The translations under genes and the position numbers were made by a program. A stretch of DNA of 64,000 nucleotides from Actinomycetota bacterium. GTDB lineage: Bacteria; Actinomycetota; UBA4738; HRBIN12. Every line of letters starts with the position of its first letter. Within the stretch, counting starts at the first letter, position 1. The stretch is taken from positions 1 to 64,000 of the forward strand of contig DASSCU010000032.1 of the NCBI GenBank assembly GCA_035697485.1. Direction: 5' to 3'. Of the stretch, positions 737 to 9,092 are shown one piece after another. Below the pieces are notes generated by a model that saw nothing but the letters and a program-made list of their open reading frames with translations, was not told the DNA's origin and searched no databases.

Positions 737-2710
737 TCACATGACCGGTTCGCTCAGGTTCTCGATCGGGAGCACCGGGATGTCGTCCGCCGGCTCGAAG
801 CCCAGCACCTGACCGTAGAACGAAAGCTCGGCCTCGTAGGCTCGCTCGATCGTCTCCGCCTTTCGGAACCCGTGCTGTTCCCCCTCGAAGAGCAGGTAGG
901 CGTGAGGCAACCCCTTCGCCCGGAGCGCCTCGACCATGACCTCGGCCTGCGCCGGCGGCACGACCTCGTCCTCCGCCCCCTGCAGCAGCAACATCGGGGT
1001 CGAGAGCAGGTCGACCGAGTGGATCGGACTTCGGGCCCGATACAGATCGATGGACTCCGGCCACGGCCCGATGAGCGTGTGCTCGTACCGAGACTCGAAC
1101 TTGTGGGTGTCGCCGGTCGCGAATGGCTCGAGATCGCTGATGCCATACCAACTGGCACCGGCCGCGAAGTCGTCGTGGAAGGTCAGGGCACACAACGTCG
1201 TATACCCGCCGGCGCTGCCGCCCCGGATCACGAGCCGCTCCCCGTCGACCTCCGCTGCGTCGGCCAGGTACCGTGCCGCGTTGATGCAGTCCGCGGTGTC
1301 GACGACCCCCCAGTTGCCGTTCAAGCGCTGCCGGTAGGCGCGGCCGAACCCCGTCGACCCCCCGTAGTTGACGTCGGCGACGGCGAATCCGCGCGTGGTC
1401 CAGAACTGGATCGCGAGGTTCAGCGTCGGCATCGCCTCGCTCGTGGGTCCTCCGTGACTCATCACGATCAGCGGGGGACGCTCCCCCTCGGGAGGCGCGG
1501 CGTTCGGGTTGTTCGGGGCGTAGAAGTGGGCGAACGACGTCACGCCTCCGTCGGTCGGGAACTCGACCTGGCGGGGCAACGACACGAACGAGGTGTCGAT
1601 CGGCATATCGACGCCCTCGCGCAACACCTCCACCGAGCGCGATCCGAAGTCGAGCCAGACCACCTCCGAGGGGATGTCGGGTGCGCCCGCGACGAACGCG
1701 ATGGCGTCGCCGGCGGCAGCGATACCCGGGCCGTGCTCGAACGACGAATACGGCAGATCGAGATCCATCATCTCCCCGGTCTCGGCATCGAGTACGGCGA
1801 GATGTTGCACACCTCGATCCCCGTACCAACACGCGATGCGGCCGTCGTCCATGAACGCGAACGACGTCTCGTTCATCACCCACTGCGGATAGCCGAACTC
1901 GGCCTGGGCAGGATGCAGCGCCACACGTTCGTCCCCGGCGAGGCGCTCGAGGTTCCACCACCCCGAGCGGTCGCTCGCGAAGACGAGTTCGCCGGCCGGA
2001 CTCCAGCTCGGCTGCCAGATCGACTCCTCCCCGTCTCTCCCGGCCACCCGACGCTCCCCGCTGAGCGACCCGTCGGACGCCAGGTCCGCGACCCAGAGCT
2101 CGCACCCGTCCCACGGCATCCACGGCAGGTTCCAGCTGAGCCACGACAGCCGACGTCCGTCCGGAGCGATGCGCGGCGTGGAGTAGAGGTCGCGGCCCGC
2201 TGCGACCGTGCGGGGTTCGCTGGATCCGTCGAGCGGGAGCACGACCAGCTCGTTGGCCACGTCGGCGACCCGGCCCGACGAAGCGTGGCGCTCCCGCACG
2301 CCGAACCACCGCTCGCCGTCGGCGCTGATCCGCCCGTCGGCGTAGCGGTGCAGGCCGCCGGTGTCGGGCGTGATGGCGACGGGCGCCTCGCCCGGGCCCT
2401 GCCGGTACAGACGCCGATCGGCGTCGTGGGAGAAGACCACGACGCCGCGTCGCACGGTCCAGGCTCCGCCCCCGTACTCGTGCACCCGCGAGCGCACGTT
2501 GAAGCCTTCGGGCGTGACATCGACGGGCGAGGACCAGGGGCCACCGCGCACCACGACGCCGCGACCTCCCTCGGCCGGACGGGCCTCGTGCCAATACACC
2601 GCCCCCTCGTCGATCCAGGGCTCGGACAACGACACGGACGACGTGGCGAGCATGCGCGGGGACACGGGGGAGGCCCACGACCCGTACGGCCGCACGATCG
2701 GCTCGCTCAT
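737..2710 (-). CDS. S9 family (prolyl oligopeptidase-like) serine peptidase
   Basis: This 657-residue protein has an N-terminal TolB-like beta-propeller (about residues 40-390) and a C-terminal alpha/beta hydrolase domain. The nucleophile elbow is GGSAGG (Ser about 498), the acid lies in GAEDEVVPP (about 578) and the histidine in GEQHGF (about 613). No signal peptide is seen, so it should act in the cytoplasm on oligopeptides, as dipeptidyl/acylaminoacyl peptidases of the S9C type do. Its ATG overlaps the stop of the upstream methyltransferase gene in an ATGA, which implies translational coupling. A second S9 enzyme lies at 15107-16888. Length and motifs are normal for the family. Confidence 0.9.
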   Translation of the reverse strand: MSEPIVRPYGSWASPVSPRMLATSSVSLSEPWIDEGAVYWHEARPAEGGRGVVVRGGPWSSPVDVTPEGFNVRSRVHEYGGGAWTVRRGVVVFSHDADRRLYRQGPGEAPVAITPDTGGLHRYADGRISADGERWFGVRERHASSGRVADVANELVVLPLDGSSEPRTVAAGRDLYSTPRIAPDGRRLSWLSWNLPWMPWDGCELWVADLASDGSLSGERRVAGRDGEESIWQPSWSPAGELVFASDRSGWWNLERLAGDERVALHPAQAEFGYPQWVMNETSFAFMDDGRIACWYGDRGVQHLAVLDAETGEMMDLDLPYSSFEHGPGIAAAGDAIAFVAGAPDIPSEVVWLDFGSRSVEVLREGVDMPIDTSFVSLPRQVEFPTDGGVTSFAHFYAPNNPNAAPPEGERPPLIVMSHGGPTSEAMPTLNLAIQFWTTRGFAVADVNYGGSTGFGRAYRQRLNGNWGVVDTADCINAARYLADAAEVDGERLVIRGGSAGGYTTLCALTFHDDFAAGASWYGISDLEPFATGDTHKFESRYEHTLIGPWPESIDLYRARSPIHSVDLLSTPMLLLQGAEDEVVPPAQAEVMVEALRAKGLPHAYLLFEGEQHGFRKAETIERAYEAELSFYGQVLGFEPADDIPVLPIENLSEPVM

Positions 2711-3567
2711 CTCGGCCGCCGGCCCACGATCACCCTGGTCACCTTCAGTTCGCCCCCCTTCGTGCTCTGCACGTCACGGAACCCTCCGGCCGTGTAGACG
2801 CGCTTGACCTCTTTGACCCGGTCGGGACTGACCTCCATCAGCAGCCATCCGTTCGCCCGGAGCCAGCGCGGCGCTCCCGCGACGGTGCGTCCGATCAAGC
2901 CGAGGCCGTCGGTGCTGTGATCGGTGAGGGTGTGCGGGGGTTCCCAGTCACGGATCTCGTCGGGCAGATCGTCGATCTCGCCGGCCGGCACATAAGGAGG
3001 GTGGAGCGTGACCACGTCGACGGATCCCCGCAGCCGCTTCGGGAGCGCGTCGAACAGGTCTCCGACCTCGAAGCGCGCCGGGAGGCCGAGCGCCTTCGCG
3101 TTCTTGCGCGCGAGGCGCACCGCGTCGCCCGCCACGTCGGTGCCCCAGACCTCGGCCTTCGGCACCTCGTCGGCGACGGCCAGCGCGACCGTGCCCCCTC
3201 CCGTCGCGACATCGACGTGCACCGGGTGCTTCCGTCGGCGGAGCCGCCTGATCGCCTGCTCCGCGAGGAACTCCGACGAGTCCCGCGGCACGAAGACCCC
3301 CGGCTTCGTCAGCAGCTCGATGCCACGGAACTCCGCATAGCCCTTGATGTACGGGATCGGCTCGCCCCCGGCCCGCCGCTCGACCAGCGCCTCGAACCGG
3401 CGACGATCCTTGCCCGACACAATGTCGCCGGGTGCTGGGTCGTGACCCAGCACGTGCATCAGGAGATCCTCGGCCTCGATGCGTTCACGGCCCTTCTGCC
3501 AATGGTCGATCGCGGGAGAGGCTTCGAGCCGCTTCACGGCGCGGGTGAGCACCCGCCGGGCTTCCAT
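2707..3567 (-). CDS. PrmC/HemK-like class I SAM-dependent methyltransferase
   Basis: The protein has 286 residues from ATG 3567; a longer upstream frame would run into the divergent gene and looks non-coding. There is a helical N-terminal domain, then a Rossmann fold with the SAM-binding loop DVATGGGTVA (119-128). The position of the signature NPPY of N5-glutamine methyltransferases is occupied by HPPY (189-192). The rest resembles PrmC (release factor glutamine methyltransferase), including a GGEPIPYIKGYAEFRG-like segment. Because the Asn of NPPY contacts the glutamine amide in PrmC, the substitution leaves the substrate uncertain. It is coupled to the downstream S9 peptidase by ATGA. Confidence 0.75.
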   Translation of the reverse strand: MEARRVLTRAVKRLEASPAIDHWQKGRERIEAEDLLMHVLGHDPAPGDIVSGKDRRRFEALVERRAGGEPIPYIKGYAEFRGIELLTKPGVFVPRDSSEFLAEQAIRRLRRRKHPVHVDVATGGGTVALAVADEVPKAEVWGTDVAGDAVRLARKNAKALGLPARFEVGDLFDALPKRLRGSVDVVTLHPPYVPAGEIDDLPDEIRDWEPPHTLTDHSTDGLGLIGRTVAGAPRWLRANGWLLMEVSPDRVKEVKRVYTAGGFRDVQSTKGGELKVTRVIVGRRPR

Positions 3568-3596
3568 GGCGAGGCATCGTACCGGGTCGCGCTCGC

Positions 3597-3602
3597 TACA
3601 CT
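3597..3602 (+). promoter_or_regulatory. Probable -10 box of the GroES-like gene
   Basis: TACACT lies 9 nt before the ATG at 3612, and no Shine-Dalgarno is present in between. If it is the -10 box, transcription starts within a few bases of the start codon and the mRNA is leaderless. No convincing -35 and no CIRCE element is seen in the 44-nt gap shared with the divergent methyltransferase gene. Confidence 0.45.
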
Positions 3603-3611
3603 CCCCCGGAC

Positions 3612-4007
3612 ATGGCTGAGACCTCGAGCTCGTCGAAGAAGCCCGGCGCCAAGACGCCCGCGAAGCGGAAACCACGGGCGAAGAAGAGCGCCGACAGGCC
3701 GGCGATCCGGCTCACGGGTGACCGCCTGGTGGTGCGGAACCCCGAGAGCGGCGAGCGCAAGAGCGCGGGCGGCCTCTTGATCCCTGCGACGGCGGCGCCG
3801 GCTCCGAGGCGCCTGGCGTGGGGCGACGTGGCCCTCGTAGGCCCGGACGTGCGGGTGGCGAAGGAAGGCGACCGCGTGCTGTTCCTGCCCTCGTCGGGCC
3901 TGGAGGTCGAGCTCGACGGTGACGAGCTCGTGCTGCTGCGCGAGCGCGACGTGCAGGCGGTCTCGTCCGCACCGGGCGAGGAGCGCGCGCCCGGCCAGTA
4001 CCTGTAG
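3612..4007 (+). CDS. GroES-like (Cpn10) protein with basic N-terminal extension
   Basis: The 131-residue protein has a Lys/Ser/Ala-rich tail (about residues 1-28) followed by a Cpn10 fold. The segments GDRLVVRNPE, SAGGLLIPATA, a WGDVALVGPDV-type strand and a final LLRERDVQAV strand match co-chaperonin 10. Canonical GroES is about 95-100 residues, so the charged tail and a roughly 10-residue C-terminus are extra. The mobile-loop region is short and atypical. It sits alone, 9 kb from groEL and without CIRCE, whereas actinobacterial groES normally precedes a groEL. It could be a divergent co-chaperonin for the groEL at 13180-14805 or a specialised paralogue; a canonical groES is not in the window. 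Confidence 0.75.
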   Translation: MAETSSSSKKPGAKTPAKRKPRAKKSADRPAIRLTGDRLVVRNPESGERKSAGGLLIPATAAPAPRRLAWGDVALVGPDVRVAKEGDRVLFLPSSGLEVELDGDELVLLRERDVQAVSSAPGEERAPGQYL

Positions 4008-4015
4008 CAGCGGCC

Positions 4016-4420
4016 TCAGCCGGGCAGGAAGCTGAGCCGCACGGTCCGAACGTCGTTCTCGTGGTTCGGGTCGACCAGCACGATCGACTGCCAGGTGCCC
4101 AGCTGCATCGCGCCCCCCACCACGGGCAGGACCAGCGATGACGAGACGAAGACGGGGAGCAGATGGTCTCCGCCGTGGCCGACCGACCCATGCCGATGCG
4201 CGTAGCGGTCGTCGCGGGGGAACACGCGCTCGAGCAACTCGTCGAGGTCGGTCTCCGAGCCGCTCCCCGTCTCCATCAGCGCGACGCCGGCAGTCGCATG
4301 CGGGACGAACACGTGGAGCAGTCCGTCGTCGTCGACGTCGGCGGCGAAACGGGCGACGCGCTCGGTCACATCGTGCACGCGGCGACCGCCCGTCTCCATC
4401 CGGAACGTCTCGGTCCGCAT
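4016..4420 (-). CDS. YjbQ/UPF0047 family protein
   Basis: The protein is 134 residues from ATG 4420. It shows the family pattern: a HATAGVALME strand, an acidic stretch with DLDELLERVFP, a Y-x-H-RHG segment, a GGDHLLPVFVSSS region and an LGTWQSIVLVD strand near the C-terminus. UPF0047 proteins such as YjbQ form trimers and have been linked to thiamine-phosphate synthase-like activity in complementation tests; the physiological role is unsettled. It is the last gene of a minus-strand operon, 7 nt after the C45 hydrolase, and converges on the GroES-like gene with 8 nt between the two stops. Confidence 0.85.
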   Translation of the reverse strand: MRTETFRMETGGRRVHDVTERVARFAADVDDDGLLHVFVPHATAGVALMETGSGSETDLDELLERVFPRDDRYAHRHGSVGHGGDHLLPVFVSSSLVLPVVGGAMQLGTWQSIVLVDPNHENDVRTVRLSFLPG

Positions 4421-4427
4421 CGCCGCC

Positions 4428-5453
4428 TCAGCCCGCGTGCCCGGACGCCGCGGACCCGTCGCCGAGCGGGGCGTCGGCGAGCACTTCGACGTGCTCGCCC
4501 TCGGCGAAGGCGTCGAACCCGAGCCGCCACGAGTCGGTCGGCCAACGGTAATCGACGACACCTTCTGAGGGCCGGAAGACGGCCGTGTAGAGGGTTCCCC
4601 ACCCGTTCGCATACGACGTGCTGAACAGCGGCGACCGCAGGAACGCGCCGGCGAACGCCTCGACGTCGGGGGCGTCGCCCTCGACCAGCCGCACGATGCA
4701 CTGCTCGCGCTCGATCGTGCGGGTCGCCTTGGCCTGTTCGGGCCACTCCACCAGCCCCTGATGGTTCGTGGCGGCGGGGAACGGCCGGAAGATCGGTTCA
4801 CGATCAGGAGAGACGTAGGCGGTCACCACGTCGCCGGCGCGATCGACGATCGTGAGGTTGTGCGCGAGGCTGAAGGGGAGCCGGGCGATCGTCTCTCGGG
4901 CCTGAGGCACCGTCTCGCAGACCTCCAGCAAGTACCGCACGACGATGGGGATGCCGAACCCGTCGCCCATCACACGTCGCCCGCCGAACGTGAGCGAGAC
5001 CGCGAGGCCGGCGTCGTTCATGCCGTCGAGCAGTCCCCACAGGCAATCGGACGTGCCGATCACCCGTCGCTCGAGGAGCCGGGTCGACCAGATCAGCCCC
5101 TCGAATCGGCCGGGGGCGTAGTCGTAGTTGCGAGCGAGCACGGGCCCACCCTCGCGCACCCACGCGCCCTGGGAGCACGCCGCCAGGTAGGGCGGTGGCG
5201 TGTAGAGCGACAGCATCCTCGCGGCGAGGTCGCCCCCACCCGCGAGCTCCACCACCCGCTCGTACGCCGGCATCAGCTCCGGCATGTGGGCTCGCAGCAT
5301 GCGGGCGCTCGTCGCGTACGAGGCGCGCGCCGCCTCTCCCTCCCTTAGGAACCACTCGCGGTAGTGCGGCCACCGTTCGTCGAAGACGCCCGCCCATTTC
5401 GGGCCGAGCTCGAGCTCTTCCACCGCGCGGAAGGTGAACGGGATCATGCGCAT
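4428..5453 (-). CDS. C45 family Ntn-hydrolase / acyltransferase
   Basis: The 341-residue protein resembles acyl-CoA:6-aminopenicillanate acyltransferases and the wider C45/choloylglycine-like Ntn group. The putative nucleophile is Cys93 in AACSQGAW, followed by LARNYDY and a conserved GLNDAG-like turn (GMNDAGLAVSL). In classical C45 enzymes the Cys becomes N-terminal by self-cleavage, so a pro-region of about 92 residues would be released. No signal peptide is evident. It lies between an ATP-grasp gene (18 nt upstream) and YjbQ (7 nt downstream). The substrate is unknown; amide bond hydrolysis or acyl transfer is expected. Confidence 0.8.
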   Translation of the reverse strand: MRMIPFTFRAVEELELGPKWAGVFDERWPHYREWFLREGEAARASYATSARMLRAHMPELMPAYERVVELAGGGDLAARMLSLYTPPPYLAACSQGAWVREGGPVLARNYDYAPGRFEGLIWSTRLLERRVIGTSDCLWGLLDGMNDAGLAVSLTFGGRRVMGDGFGIPIVVRYLLEVCETVPQARETIARLPFSLAHNLTIVDRAGDVVTAYVSPDREPIFRPFPAATNHQGLVEWPEQAKATRTIEREQCIVRLVEGDAPDVEAFAGAFLRSPLFSTSYANGWGTLYTAVFRPSEGVVDYRWPTDSWRLGFDAFAEGEHVEVLADAPLGDGSAASGHAG

Positions 5454-5471
5454 CGTCGGTATCGGGTGCCG

Positions 5472-7100
5472 CTAGAGCATCTTGAAGCCGAACGGTTCCG
5501 GTTCGACCGGGGGAGGCGCCTCCGAGGGCGGCGGCACGCTGCGGAACTGCGACTTGATACCGGTGATCCACGACCTGGCCCGGTCGACCAGCTCGTGGTC
5601 GTCGTCGAGGAACCGCCCTCGCGTGACCAGGATACCCAGGTCCGCGCCCGGATACCGGTAGCCGCCGACATCCGCGATGCGCAGATAGAAGGCCTCCGAT
5701 CCGTCGGCGACCGTGTGCCAGTCGGTGTCGCGACGCGCGTACGCGATGCGTCCGTCGTCCCCCATGCGCCAGATGCCCGACGCCGGGGCATCGGTGATCA
5801 GCTCAACCGAGTCCTCCGTTTGTTTGAGGATGAACTGCGTCCACTCGTCCAGGTTGCCGGGGTGCGCCCAGCGCCGGTTCAGCTCCTCCACGTCGATCTC
5901 GTACTCGACGTCCATGAACTCCAGCAGGTGGAAGAGGAATAGCGGCATGTCGCCGTAAGCGACGGCGGTGACGTTCGTGATGCTGCTGGCCCCGGTCACC
6001 CTCGGGTTCAGCTCGCCCAGGTACATCTCGCCCGATCCTGCGTCGGCGAGGAAGTCGAGCTCGAAGTAGCCCCGGTATCCCTCCTGCCGTAGGCGTTCTC
6101 CGACGGCGTACGTGCGCTCTCGCGCGAGCAGCCGCTGCTCGGGCGTGAGCACCTCCGAGAACACGTCGTTGCCGCACCATCCACCGTCGTACGGCGTGAG
6201 CTCGGGGAAGCCGGTGAGCTCCGCCATGAGTGGGCCCACGAGAGTCCCGTGCCGCGTGATCACGCCCTCGATCGCGGTCTCACGCGGATCGATCCTCTTC
6301 ATCACCTTGAGGTCCTCGCCGACGATCTTCTCCTCGTCGGCCTTCCAATCGGACGCGCTCGCGACGAAGAACGTCGTCTGCCCCGAGTCGCCGTATGGCG
6401 TCTGGATCACGAGGTCGTCGCCGAGACCGGCGCCGCCTGCCAGGTCGAGCACCTCTCGGTAGGTCGACGCTCGCCCCATGACGTTGGGCACGCTCGGTAC
6501 CCCTGCCTCGTTCGCGAGCCTCGTGGTCTCGATCTTGGAGTCGAGCCGATGCCGCAGCTCAGCGGGGGGGAACGCCACCTCGAGGCCGAGCTCCGCTGCC
6601 AGGGTCTCCGTCTCCTCGTCGAACATCAGGAACGCGACCTTGCCCCCGGGACCACGACCCCGCACGTAGTCCACCACCTCTTTGTGGCCGAGCAGGTAGT
6701 TGCAGATGTGCTCGATCGATTCGAAGGCGCGCGGGCTCTGCTCCTTCGGGACGAAGACGTTGGGATGCCATCCGTCGAATGAGTCGTAGTAGTTCACGAA
6801 CTTGAAGTTGCGGACCCATCGGTCGATGCCGAGCAGGTTGAAGGCCGTGGCCGAGACGAAGTACACCGGCACCTCGTTCGTCCTGAAGAAGTGCCGGATC
6901 GCCGGTATGCCGACGAGCGGGCCGTCCGTCGACCGCTTGCTCGCCGTGTCGGTGCGATCGGCCGGTGGAACCTCGGCGACGGCGACGGCCGTGTCGCCGG
7001 CCCGAGCGACGCGCGACCGCTCGCGCCGCACGTACCAGCGAGCGACGACGATCAGCACGACGAGCGCAACCAAGACGGCCGCGATCAGGCCAGGCTGCAC
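5472..7100 (-). CDS. Membrane-anchored ATP-grasp enzyme
   Basis: The protein has 542 residues. One transmembrane helix (about 5-21) leads through a basic/Ala linker into a soluble domain with ATP-grasp features: a PYGDSGQTTFFV nucleotide-binding loop, MKRIDPRETAIEG, a GYFELDFLAD strand and GELNPRVTG, the acidic/Asn Mg-ATP site of carbamoyl-phosphate-synthase-like ligases. ATP-grasp enzymes join a carboxylate to an amine or thiol through an acyl-phosphate. It starts 16 nt before the stop of the upstream M20 gene and is 18 nt from the C45 gene, so a shared pathway is likely. The proline-rich C-terminus is unusual. The product is not known. Confidence 0.8.
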   Translation of the reverse strand: MQPGLIAAVLVALVVLIVVARWYVRRERSRVARAGDTAVAVAEVPPADRTDTASKRSTDGPLVGIPAIRHFFRTNEVPVYFVSATAFNLLGIDRWVRNFKFVNYYDSFDGWHPNVFVPKEQSPRAFESIEHICNYLLGHKEVVDYVRGRGPGGKVAFLMFDEETETLAAELGLEVAFPPAELRHRLDSKIETTRLANEAGVPSVPNVMGRASTYREVLDLAGGAGLGDDLVIQTPYGDSGQTTFFVASASDWKADEEKIVGEDLKVMKRIDPRETAIEGVITRHGTLVGPLMAELTGFPELTPYDGGWCGNDVFSEVLTPEQRLLARERTYAVGERLRQEGYRGYFELDFLADAGSGEMYLGELNPRVTGASSITNVTAVAYGDMPLFLFHLLEFMDVEYEIDVEELNRRWAHPGNLDEWTQFILKQTEDSVELITDAPASGIWRMGDDGRIAYARRDTDWHTVADGSEAFYLRIADVGGYRYPGADLGILVTRGRFLDDDHELVDRARSWITGIKSQFRSVPPPSEAPPPVEPEPFGFKML

Positions 7101-8473
7101 CAGTCTCTGACGAACAGGCCCAACACCTGGGCGGTCTGCACCACGGACGGAAGGTACACCCGTTCCCCCACGCCGTGCGCGGCCTCGGCATAGGGCCCGA
7201 AACAGACGGCGGGGATCCCCGCGACGTTGCCGAAGACCGCCGCGTCGGTCGTGCCGGTGGTGGAGACGAGCGCCGGGGGTGTGCCCGCTTGTCTCGTGAA
7301 GGCGTGGGCTAACGACGTCACCAGGGGATGGTCGTCGGGGATGTCGTAGCCACGGCTCGAGAAGCCGTTGTAGCGGACCTCGGCCGCGCCCGGCTGGTCG
7401 CTCGTCGCCTCATTCACCGCGGCTTCGATGCGACCTTTGAGCTCGCCGATCATCATCTCCGGGTACATGGCGATCCGATAGCCCGTCTCGCACTCGCCCG
7501 GCACCGTGGAGGCCCAGTCGCCGCCCCTGATCGTGCCGACGTTGAGGTTGATGGGGTGCGTGAACAGGTCGTAGGGAGGGGGCGGGCTCGCGTTCAGATC
7601 CGCCTCGAGCGATCGCAGCGCACCGATCACCGCGAGGCTCTTCTCGATCGCGTTCGTGGCGTGCTGACCCTCGGCGGCGTGTCCCGGCACCCCGGTGATC
7701 CGGACGCTGAACCACAACACCCCGACCTGCGAGGTCGTGATCGCCGCGCCGAACGGCTCCGCGATCACCGCCGCGTCGGCCGTGTAACCGTCGAGCAGGG
7801 TCTGCAGGGTCCCGTTGCCCGAGCATTCCTCCTCGACGACCGACTCCACGGTGACCGGAGCTCGCGGCGTGAGGCCGAGGGACCGCAGGCCCTTGACCGC
7901 TCCGAGGATCGCCGCGATGCCGCACTTCATGTCCGCGGCTCCCCGGCCGACCATCCAGCCGTCCTCCCGATGGGCGCCGAAGGGATCGACGTCGCCCCAA
8001 TGCGTCGTCGGCTCGGGACTCACGACGTCGATGTGCCCGTTGAGGATCAACGAACGCCCGGGCTCCCCATCACGGGGCCCCCACCTGGAGACGACGTTGC
8101 GCTTGCCCGCGACATCCCAGTCGAACGGAGCCGCGAGCGGATGACCGCGCAGGCGCTCGCCGTCCATCGGCACGTCGACCGGCTCGAGGCCGATCTCGGC
8201 GAGCGCAGCCTCGACGACGATCTGGCCCGGTTCCTCGTTGCCGAGCGTCGTGGGCGCACGGACGAGCTCAGAGAGGAGGTCGGTCATCCAGTCGGCCTGC
8301 TCGGCGATCGCAGCCAGGATCTCGCCGTCGATCGATCCGGCGTCCTCGGAGGACTCGGCGGGCGCGAGCTCCCCCCGACCGGCGAACGCGTGCGCATCGG
8401 GGGTCTCGACGTCGGTCGTGAGCCGGCTGCCACCGTATGCGCCCGGGGGGGCCTCGTCGGGCAGGGGCTCCAT
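7085..8473 (-). CDS. M20 family (ArgE/DapE-type) metallo-deacylase
   Basis: The 462-residue protein starts at ATG 8473; an ATG 18 nt upstream is also possible. It contains the two-zinc M20 signature: GHIDVVSPE, GRGAADMKCG, the catalytic VEEECSGNG and a C-terminal GPYAEAAHGVGE. The dimerisation lid falls between about residues 230 and 350. Family members remove acyl or amino-acyl groups from amino acids and dipeptides. It heads the operon M20, ATP-grasp, C45, YjbQ, overlapping the ATP-grasp gene by 16 nt. The N-terminal 50 residues are a low-complexity extension. ArgE, DapE, carboxypeptidase G2 and peptidase T-like roles cannot be separated by sequence alone. Confidence 0.85.
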   Translation of the reverse strand: MEPLPDEAPPGAYGGSRLTTDVETPDAHAFAGRGELAPAESSEDAGSIDGEILAAIAEQADWMTDLLSELVRAPTTLGNEEPGQIVVEAALAEIGLEPVDVPMDGERLRGHPLAAPFDWDVAGKRNVVSRWGPRDGEPGRSLILNGHIDVVSPEPTTHWGDVDPFGAHREDGWMVGRGAADMKCGIAAILGAVKGLRSLGLTPRAPVTVESVVEEECSGNGTLQTLLDGYTADAAVIAEPFGAAITTSQVGVLWFSVRITGVPGHAAEGQHATNAIEKSLAVIGALRSLEADLNASPPPPYDLFTHPINLNVGTIRGGDWASTVPGECETGYRIAMYPEMMIGELKGRIEAAVNEATSDQPGAAEVRYNGFSSRGYDIPDDHPLVTSLAHAFTRQAGTPPALVSTTGTTDAAVFGNVAGIPAVCFGPYAEAAHGVGERVYLPSVVQTAQVLGLFVRDWCSLA

Positions 8474-8555: not shown

Positions 8556-9092
8556 ATGACGACACGTCCGGCACATCACTCCCCGTCCGACGACGAGATC
8601 CGTGGGTGGTTCGCGGGCCGCGTGCCCGACGACTGGTTCGTCGGACCGCTCGAGGTCGGCAGCGACCGCGACGAGATCCTCGTCATGGGTACGATCGCCG
8701 CACCCGACCTGCCCGACGACGAGAGCGCGGAGGCTCGGAGCGCGGCGGTCGCGGCGCGGATCGGCGGCTTCCGCGAGGACACGAGGGCACGACGTATCAA
8801 GATCGCGTCCGAGGCCGAGCATCGGTTCGGGCGGAAGGTGAGCTGGGGCGTGGTCTGCGCCGATCAGCGGGTGACGTTCACGACCCTCAGCGTGCCTGCG
8901 ATGACCCGTCTGCGCCTCGCCGAACGCCGGGTCCTCGACACGCTGGTCGATGCCGGGGTGGCCCGCAGCCGGAGTCACGCCCTCGCGTGGTGCGTCCGCC
9001 TCGTCGCCGAACGGCAGGACGACTGGCTGCGTGACCTTCGCGAAGCGCTGACCACCGTCGAGAAGGTTCGGGCGGAGGGTCCGAAGGACTGA
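8556..9092 (+). CDS. Conserved hypothetical protein with RHH-like C-terminal segment
   Basis: The 178-residue soluble protein has no signal peptide. The first 60 residues are acidic (DDEIRGWFAGRVPDDWF; DRDEILVMGTI). A Lys/Arg-rich middle (about 76-100) and a C-terminal stretch with RLAERRVLDTLVDAGVARS and SHALAWCVRLV follow; the last part looks like the paired helices that end small actinobacterial DNA-binding proteins. The gene stands alone, divergent from the M20 operon, behind a recognisable promoter. I do not recognise a named family with confidence. A regulatory role is inference. Confidence 0.65.
   Translation: MTTRPAHHSPSDDEIRGWFAGRVPDDWFVGPLEVGSDRDEILVMGTIAAPDLPDDESAEARSAAVAARIGGFREDTRARRIKIASEAEHRFGRKVSWGVVCADQRVTFTTLSVPAMTRLRLAERRVLDTLVDAGVARSRSHALAWCVRLVAERQDDWLRDLREALTTVEKVRAEGPKD

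Follow-up and report, generated by a model that had tools for sequence, protein, structure and literature searches.

A widespread pair of an ATP-grasp ligase labelled 'biotin carboxylase' and a C45 hydrolase, found among arginine/GABA-type genes

A four-gene cassette within a resident block

The window, a stretch of 64,000 nucleotides of contig DASSCU010000032.1 from an Actinomycetota bacterium, contains a compact cassette of four genes on the minus strand, flanked by the genes of a resident block:

8473-7085, minus strand: M20 ArgE/DapE-type deacylase (NF005306/TIGR01910)
7100-5472, minus strand: ATP-grasp ligase with a GTG start (PRK06524/NF005096, E 5e-230)
5453-4428, minus strand: C45 Ntn hydrolase (NF040521/PF03417)
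4420-4016, minus strand: YjbQ/UPF0047 protein (TIGR00149/PF01894)
3612..4007, plus strand: Cpn10-like protein; resident block, lower flank of the cassette
2707..3675, minus strand: PrmC/HemK-type protein methyltransferase; resident block
8556..9092, plus strand: AbmR-like ATP-binding transcription factor (NF058631); resident block, upper flank of the cassette

The coordinates and family searches agree with the first-pass annotation, which had described four tightly spaced reading frames on one strand. The M20 and ATP-grasp genes overlap by 16 nt, the gap between the ATP-grasp and C45 genes is 18 nt, and that between C45 and YjbQ is 7 nt. This arrangement is not due to chance, since it recurs in relatives. 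The AbmR-like gene diverges from the M20 gene with 82 nt between them, and a shared promoter region is possible. The GC content of the cassette is 68.9% versus 70-71% in the flanks, with a third-position GC of 0.89-0.90.

A comparison of 61 genomes, comprising that of the window and 60 relatives, reveals which of these genes belong together. The ATP-grasp gene is found in eight close relatives, counting the window's genome, and any further match is weak, at E 1e-5 or worse. Exactly the same eight genomes have C45; genome G001 is counted through a 48% paralogue located on a different contig, because the contig bearing its ATP-grasp gene stops short of the expected C45. At E<=1e-60, five of these eight genomes have M20 next to the pair; the other three, all from one genus, keep ATP-grasp and C45 with no M20 beside them. 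More distant M20 copies are found elsewhere in three genomes of the sample. M20 is an optional, lineage-specific accessory. Its metal-ligand motifs are intact (H147, D149, D181, E215/E216, E239 and H433). In another genome, a close M20 relative (55%) lies without ATP-grasp beside an aldehyde dehydrogenase, an amino-acid permease and a frame resembling a group-II decarboxylase (L145), which is another amine-breakdown setting for this type of M20.

YjbQ is present in 49 of the 61 genomes. Relatives that lack the cassette carry the block PrmC–Cpn10–YjbQ–AbmR–NlpC, in which AbmR lies near YjbQ (roughly 100 nt away at locus L140); a 3-kb stretch separates the two in cassette-free genome G005, and AbmR was not detected at cassette-free locus L142. 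Because the PrmC–Cpn10–YjbQ–AbmR block exists without the cassette, YjbQ is a resident neighbour. We therefore rejected it as a pathway member on account of these cassette-free sites, and it is probably a bystander. A recent insertion of the cassette was also considered and rejected. In the tree of five resident genes, cassette-free genomes are nested inside cassette-bearing ones, one node having zero support, and the base composition of the cassette is in line with that of its flanks. Old presence with repeated later losses fits this nesting and the native composition better.

The ATP-grasp ligase and its C45 partner

The ATP-grasp protein scores 763.6 bits against the curated cut-off of 684 for PRK06524/NF005096, the NCBIfam 'biotin carboxylase' entry that alone covers it; no Pfam family matched. 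Its structure model (pLDDT 86) finds biotin carboxylases as top matches (E 1e-17, TM about 0.55), the profile search also returns the biotin carboxylase family, and N5-CAIR synthetase is among the fold matches as well. By sequence, no close solved relatives were found beyond weak carboxylase matches. Invariant core residues are K189, E347, E363, N365 and R367. The first-pass annotation had described the protein as membrane-anchored. An N-terminal membrane helix is indeed predicted at about residues 3-30, but it is confined to the window's lineage, and proteobacterial homologues begin at the conserved domain.

The name 'biotin carboxylase' does not hold in detail. In the profile alignment to PDB carboxylases, the motif R-x-Q-V-E of biotin carboxylase reads R-V-T-G-A (within E363-L-N365-P-R367-V-T-G-A), and the QRRxQK stretch finds no match. 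Furthermore, neither a biotin carrier nor a carboxyltransferase gene was found among the neighbour families identified at about 95 loci, where part of the neighbours was scanned. The protein shares with biotin carboxylases such as E. coli AccC the ATP-grasp fold, the BC-type C-terminal part and the NCBIfam name, whereas the bicarbonate-site residues are not kept and another substrate is predicted. A true biotin carboxylase was rejected for these reasons: the fold fits, but the bicarbonate/biotin-site motif does not, and no partner gene was identified. The replacement of Q-V-E by T-G-A and the missing partner genes point to a ligase with another acyl substrate, which is wrongly named and most likely makes amide-type bonds.

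The C45 protein scores 162.9 bits against a cut-off of 85 for NF040521, and the family assignment, an IAT-like fold and the nucleophile Cys were all found. Its model (pLDDT 94) matches isopenicillin N acyltransferase best in the PDB (2x1c, E 1e-13, TM 0.68); no meaningful close solved relative was found by sequence. Cys93, the predicted nucleophile, lies within ...A/G-C-S-Q... and is invariant in 38 sequences; R108-N109-Y110-D111 and N230 are invariant too. With a strict pattern, the motif G/A-C-S/T-Q is found in 66 of 75. The fold, the position of the nucleophilic Cys and the G/A-Cys autocleavage motif are shared with 2x1c, but sequence identity is only 13-14%, and the C45 proteins here are bacterial and placed amid amine catabolism rather than antibiotic synthesis. 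C45 is most likely the amide-cutting partner of the ATP-grasp ligase. The first-pass annotation had assigned one bond-making and two bond-breaking enzymes to the cassette; the ligase and its C45 counterpart stand, while the M20 part is optional. A second C45, 48% identical to the window copy, lies in the window's genome on contig C5 (116011-116988).

Distribution and gene neighbourhood of the pair

An alignment-based scan of genome contigs yielded 80 loci. They span at least five phyla, including Actinomycetota (with a Thermoleophilia MAG), alpha- and gammaproteobacteria, Trueperaceae, Gemmatimonadota and a Phycisphaerales MAG; Betaproteobacteria were added by the plasmid search. C45 lies directly downstream of ATP-grasp on the same strand in 79 of the 80 loci and the last one (L038) is cut by a contig end, with the proteobacterial count resting on the 80 nearest loci and not on a random sample. 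The two genes overlap or are at most 114 nt apart in 72 of 74 measured loci. M20 is found upstream of the pair in 6 of the 80 loci and YjbQ near it in 5. The complete four-gene order, whose conservation across Actinomycetota had been raised before, does recur (L043, L044), but only in the window's Actinomycetota family. With a GC content of 69%, locus L069 was left out as a case from Bacillota, since either its label, 'Oceanobacillus sp. HTM 045', or the contig itself is probably in error. On plasmid p3 of R. leguminosarum (L129, 11482-12769), the C45 match extends over only 73 residues and is followed by an IS30 transposase, so that this copy is probably interrupted.

An even sample of 396 Actinomycetota genomes contains ATP-grasp in 14, as 15 copies. 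Ten copies adjoin C45, one of them on the opposite strand (L122), and another copy is truncated by the end of its contig. At the remaining four loci (L118-L121), read as probably mycobacterial, with a PE-like protein in L118, a beta-lactamase-fold hydrolase (PF00144) lies directly downstream and replaces C45. These four hydrolases are 81-82% alike, and a 40% relative is encoded alongside the pair in a Rhizobium plasmid cluster (L130). Thus, the ligase accompanies a hydrolase of changing fold. Pairwise distances of ATP-grasp and C45 correlate (r=0.86, Mantel p=0.001). When the PLP decarboxylase and C-N hydrolase described below are included, r ranges from 0.86 to 0.94, to which shared organism history contributes. 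The true unit is ATP-grasp plus C45, linked over at least five phyla and lost together. Whether the cassette genes regularly occur alone therefore has a split answer: YjbQ and M20 do, ATP-grasp and C45 do not.

Clustering of adjacent reading frames shows what surrounds the pair. Of the 80 loci, 65 have an Orn/Lys/Arg-decarboxylase-type (OKR-type) PLP enzyme (~920 aa, PF01276), and a carbon–nitrogen hydrolase (PF00795) is present at 57. In Halomonas and relatives, ATP-grasp, C45, the OKR-type decarboxylase and the C-N hydrolase lie among ectoine-degradation genes, namely DoeA, DoeB, an Lrp-type regulator, an SSADH-like dehydrogenase and a class-III aminotransferase that is not of the GABA-transaminase type. 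In Gemmatimonadota, both SSADH and GABA transaminase are located just upstream of the pair on the same strand. One or the other occurs at several further loci, with GABA transaminase near the pair in several gamma- and alphaproteobacterial MAGs, in Roseobacter ponti and at actinomycete locus L122; neither stands beside the window cassette. In Shinella and Thiothrix/Thiofilum, the pair is accompanied by 5-guanidino-2-oxopentanoate decarboxylase, an agmatinase-type ureohydrolase, an aldehyde dehydrogenase, a D-amino-acid dehydrogenase and a racemase, recognisably a cluster for arginine to 4-guanidinobutyrate to GABA. Importers are also present: family 5 substrate-binding proteins in S. meliloti and R. 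leguminosarum, and amino-acid permeases in Thiothrix and Shinella. The S. meliloti tags SMa0680/SMa0682 were left out, as they were not matched to the decarboxylase at the pair locus. No PuuB-like oxidase was regularly present at the pair loci.

In the window's genome the link to arginine is indirect, because a search for an OKR-type decarboxylase, which lacked a positive control, gave no hit there, and the genes for GABA transaminase and ureohydrolases are found away from the cassette on separate contigs. To be noted, on contig C24 of this genome (about 207949-210406, L153) a frame resembling lysine 2,3-aminomutase adjoins a C-N hydrolase sharing 42% identity with its proteobacterial counterpart.

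Proposed function and competing readings

The ligase travels with an amide hydrolase of two folds amid genes leading from arginine-type amino acids to GABA and succinate, and this is best explained by temporary conjugation. The ATP-grasp enzyme would activate a carboxylate as an acyl-phosphate and join it to an amine from arginine, ornithine or diamine breakdown, giving a temporary N-acyl amide. After the downstream steps, C45 would hydrolyse this amide via its N-terminal Cys and return the acyl part. A gamma-glutamate as acyl part is a guess, to which a glutamate-dehydrogenase-family gene in the wider region of Rhizobium and Sinorhizobium and a dicarboxylate symporter with a family-3 binding protein near the pair in Cupriavidus lend weak hints. 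M20 in the window's Actinomycetota lineage may be a further amide hydrolase that takes the slot held by the C-N hydrolase or amidase in other phyla; such a replacement is suggested as M20 and the C–N hydrolase were not seen together at one locus. We consider the chances about even that the core of the cassette is the pair, with an arginine- or diamine-derived amine temporarily amidated and later released by C45, the substrates being deduced from the gene context. The C45 paralogue of the window's genome, which has no ATP-grasp gene nearby, is a counterpoint to this pair model. The indirect arginine link in that genome, the lack of a regular PuuB-like oxidase and the ectoine-degradation setting in Halomonas also speak against it.

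Comparable logic is known from other systems. PuuA adopts the fold of glutamine synthetase, and its counterpart PuuD belongs to the class-I-glutaminase-type hydrolases. In animals, Ebony and Tan conjugate amines with beta-alanine and hydrolyse the conjugates, so a conjugating ligase is paired there with a C45 hydrolase acting on amines; Ebony is NRPS-like and not an ATP-grasp enzyme. PuuA and PuuD conjugate putrescine temporarily and hydrolyse the conjugate later (PMC9397018). The proposed route shares with the Puu pathway (PuuA ligase, PuuD hydrolase, GABA transaminase, SSADH) the protect-then-release logic ending in GABA to succinate, and GABA transaminase, SSADH or both stand near the pair at several loci. 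It differs in that ATP-grasp and C45 have folds unrelated to PuuA and PuuD, and homologues of PuuB and PuuC are not regularly adjacent.

The first-pass annotation had proposed a small pathway for an unknown peptide or acyl-amino acid. A biosynthetic role, in which the pair makes and remodels such a compound with C45 as acyltransferase instead of hydrolase, draws on the resemblance of C45 to isopenicillin N acyltransferase, which can act as an acyltransferase, and on the common formation of dipeptides by ATP-grasp enzymes. However, no recurrent NRPS, export or tailoring genes were found near the pair, and its recurrent neighbours are catabolic enzymes and importers, which makes this role unlikely; the neighbours elsewhere point more to breakdown of arginine or diamines to GABA than to synthesis. 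The ATP-grasp enzyme could instead work without biotin as a carboxylase, using carboxyphosphate to N-carboxylate an amine, guanidine or urea, and C45 and the C-N hydrolase would then split the product. Its closest fold, the match to N5-CAIR synthetase and the guanidino compounds of the neighbouring pathway are consistent with this, but R-V-T-G-A in place of R-x-Q-V-E and the unmatched QRRxQK stretch argue against it. C45 enzymes are known to act on acyl amides rather than on carbamates, and we give N-carboxylation little credence.

That all four genes, YjbQ included, form one pathway is suggested by their tight spacing on one strand in the window and by the same order at L043 and L044. Against it, YjbQ adjoins Cpn10 in cassette-free relatives and is common among the genomes but rare at the pair loci (49/61 and 5/80), and one genus keeps the pair without an adjacent M20. 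This is largely refuted and now highly improbable: YjbQ is independent of the cassette, M20 is optional, and only ATP-grasp and C45 are inseparable. Temporary conjugation is the reading we prefer. The earlier impression that no pathway of this composition had been described was borne out, since we found no published work on the ATP-grasp/C45 pair in the openly accessible literature.

What the analysis leaves in place of the four-gene pathway is a widespread, mislabelled and uncharacterised ATP-grasp/C45 pair in an arginine/GABA-type context. We tentatively suggest, with somewhat more doubt than belief, that it marks an undescribed widespread route for degrading arginine- or diamine-derived amines in conjugated form. 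The conjugates would come from a BC-fold, non-biotin ATP-grasp ligase; release would be by C45, or by the beta-lactamase-fold hydrolase in probable mycobacteria, and the other amide-cutting step would fall to a C-N hydrolase, an amidase or M20 according to lineage. The locus also illustrates that what looks like one tight 'operon' in a single genome may combine a pathway with a long-standing neighbour. The label 'biotin carboxylase' is misleading in Halomonas, Rhodobacterales, Rhizobium plasmids, probable mycobacteria and uncultured Actinomycetota. The association of the ligase with C45 and with genes of the arginine/GABA type offers two uncharacterised families a concrete function that can be tested, and points to a new means of arginine, ornithine or diamine breakdown.
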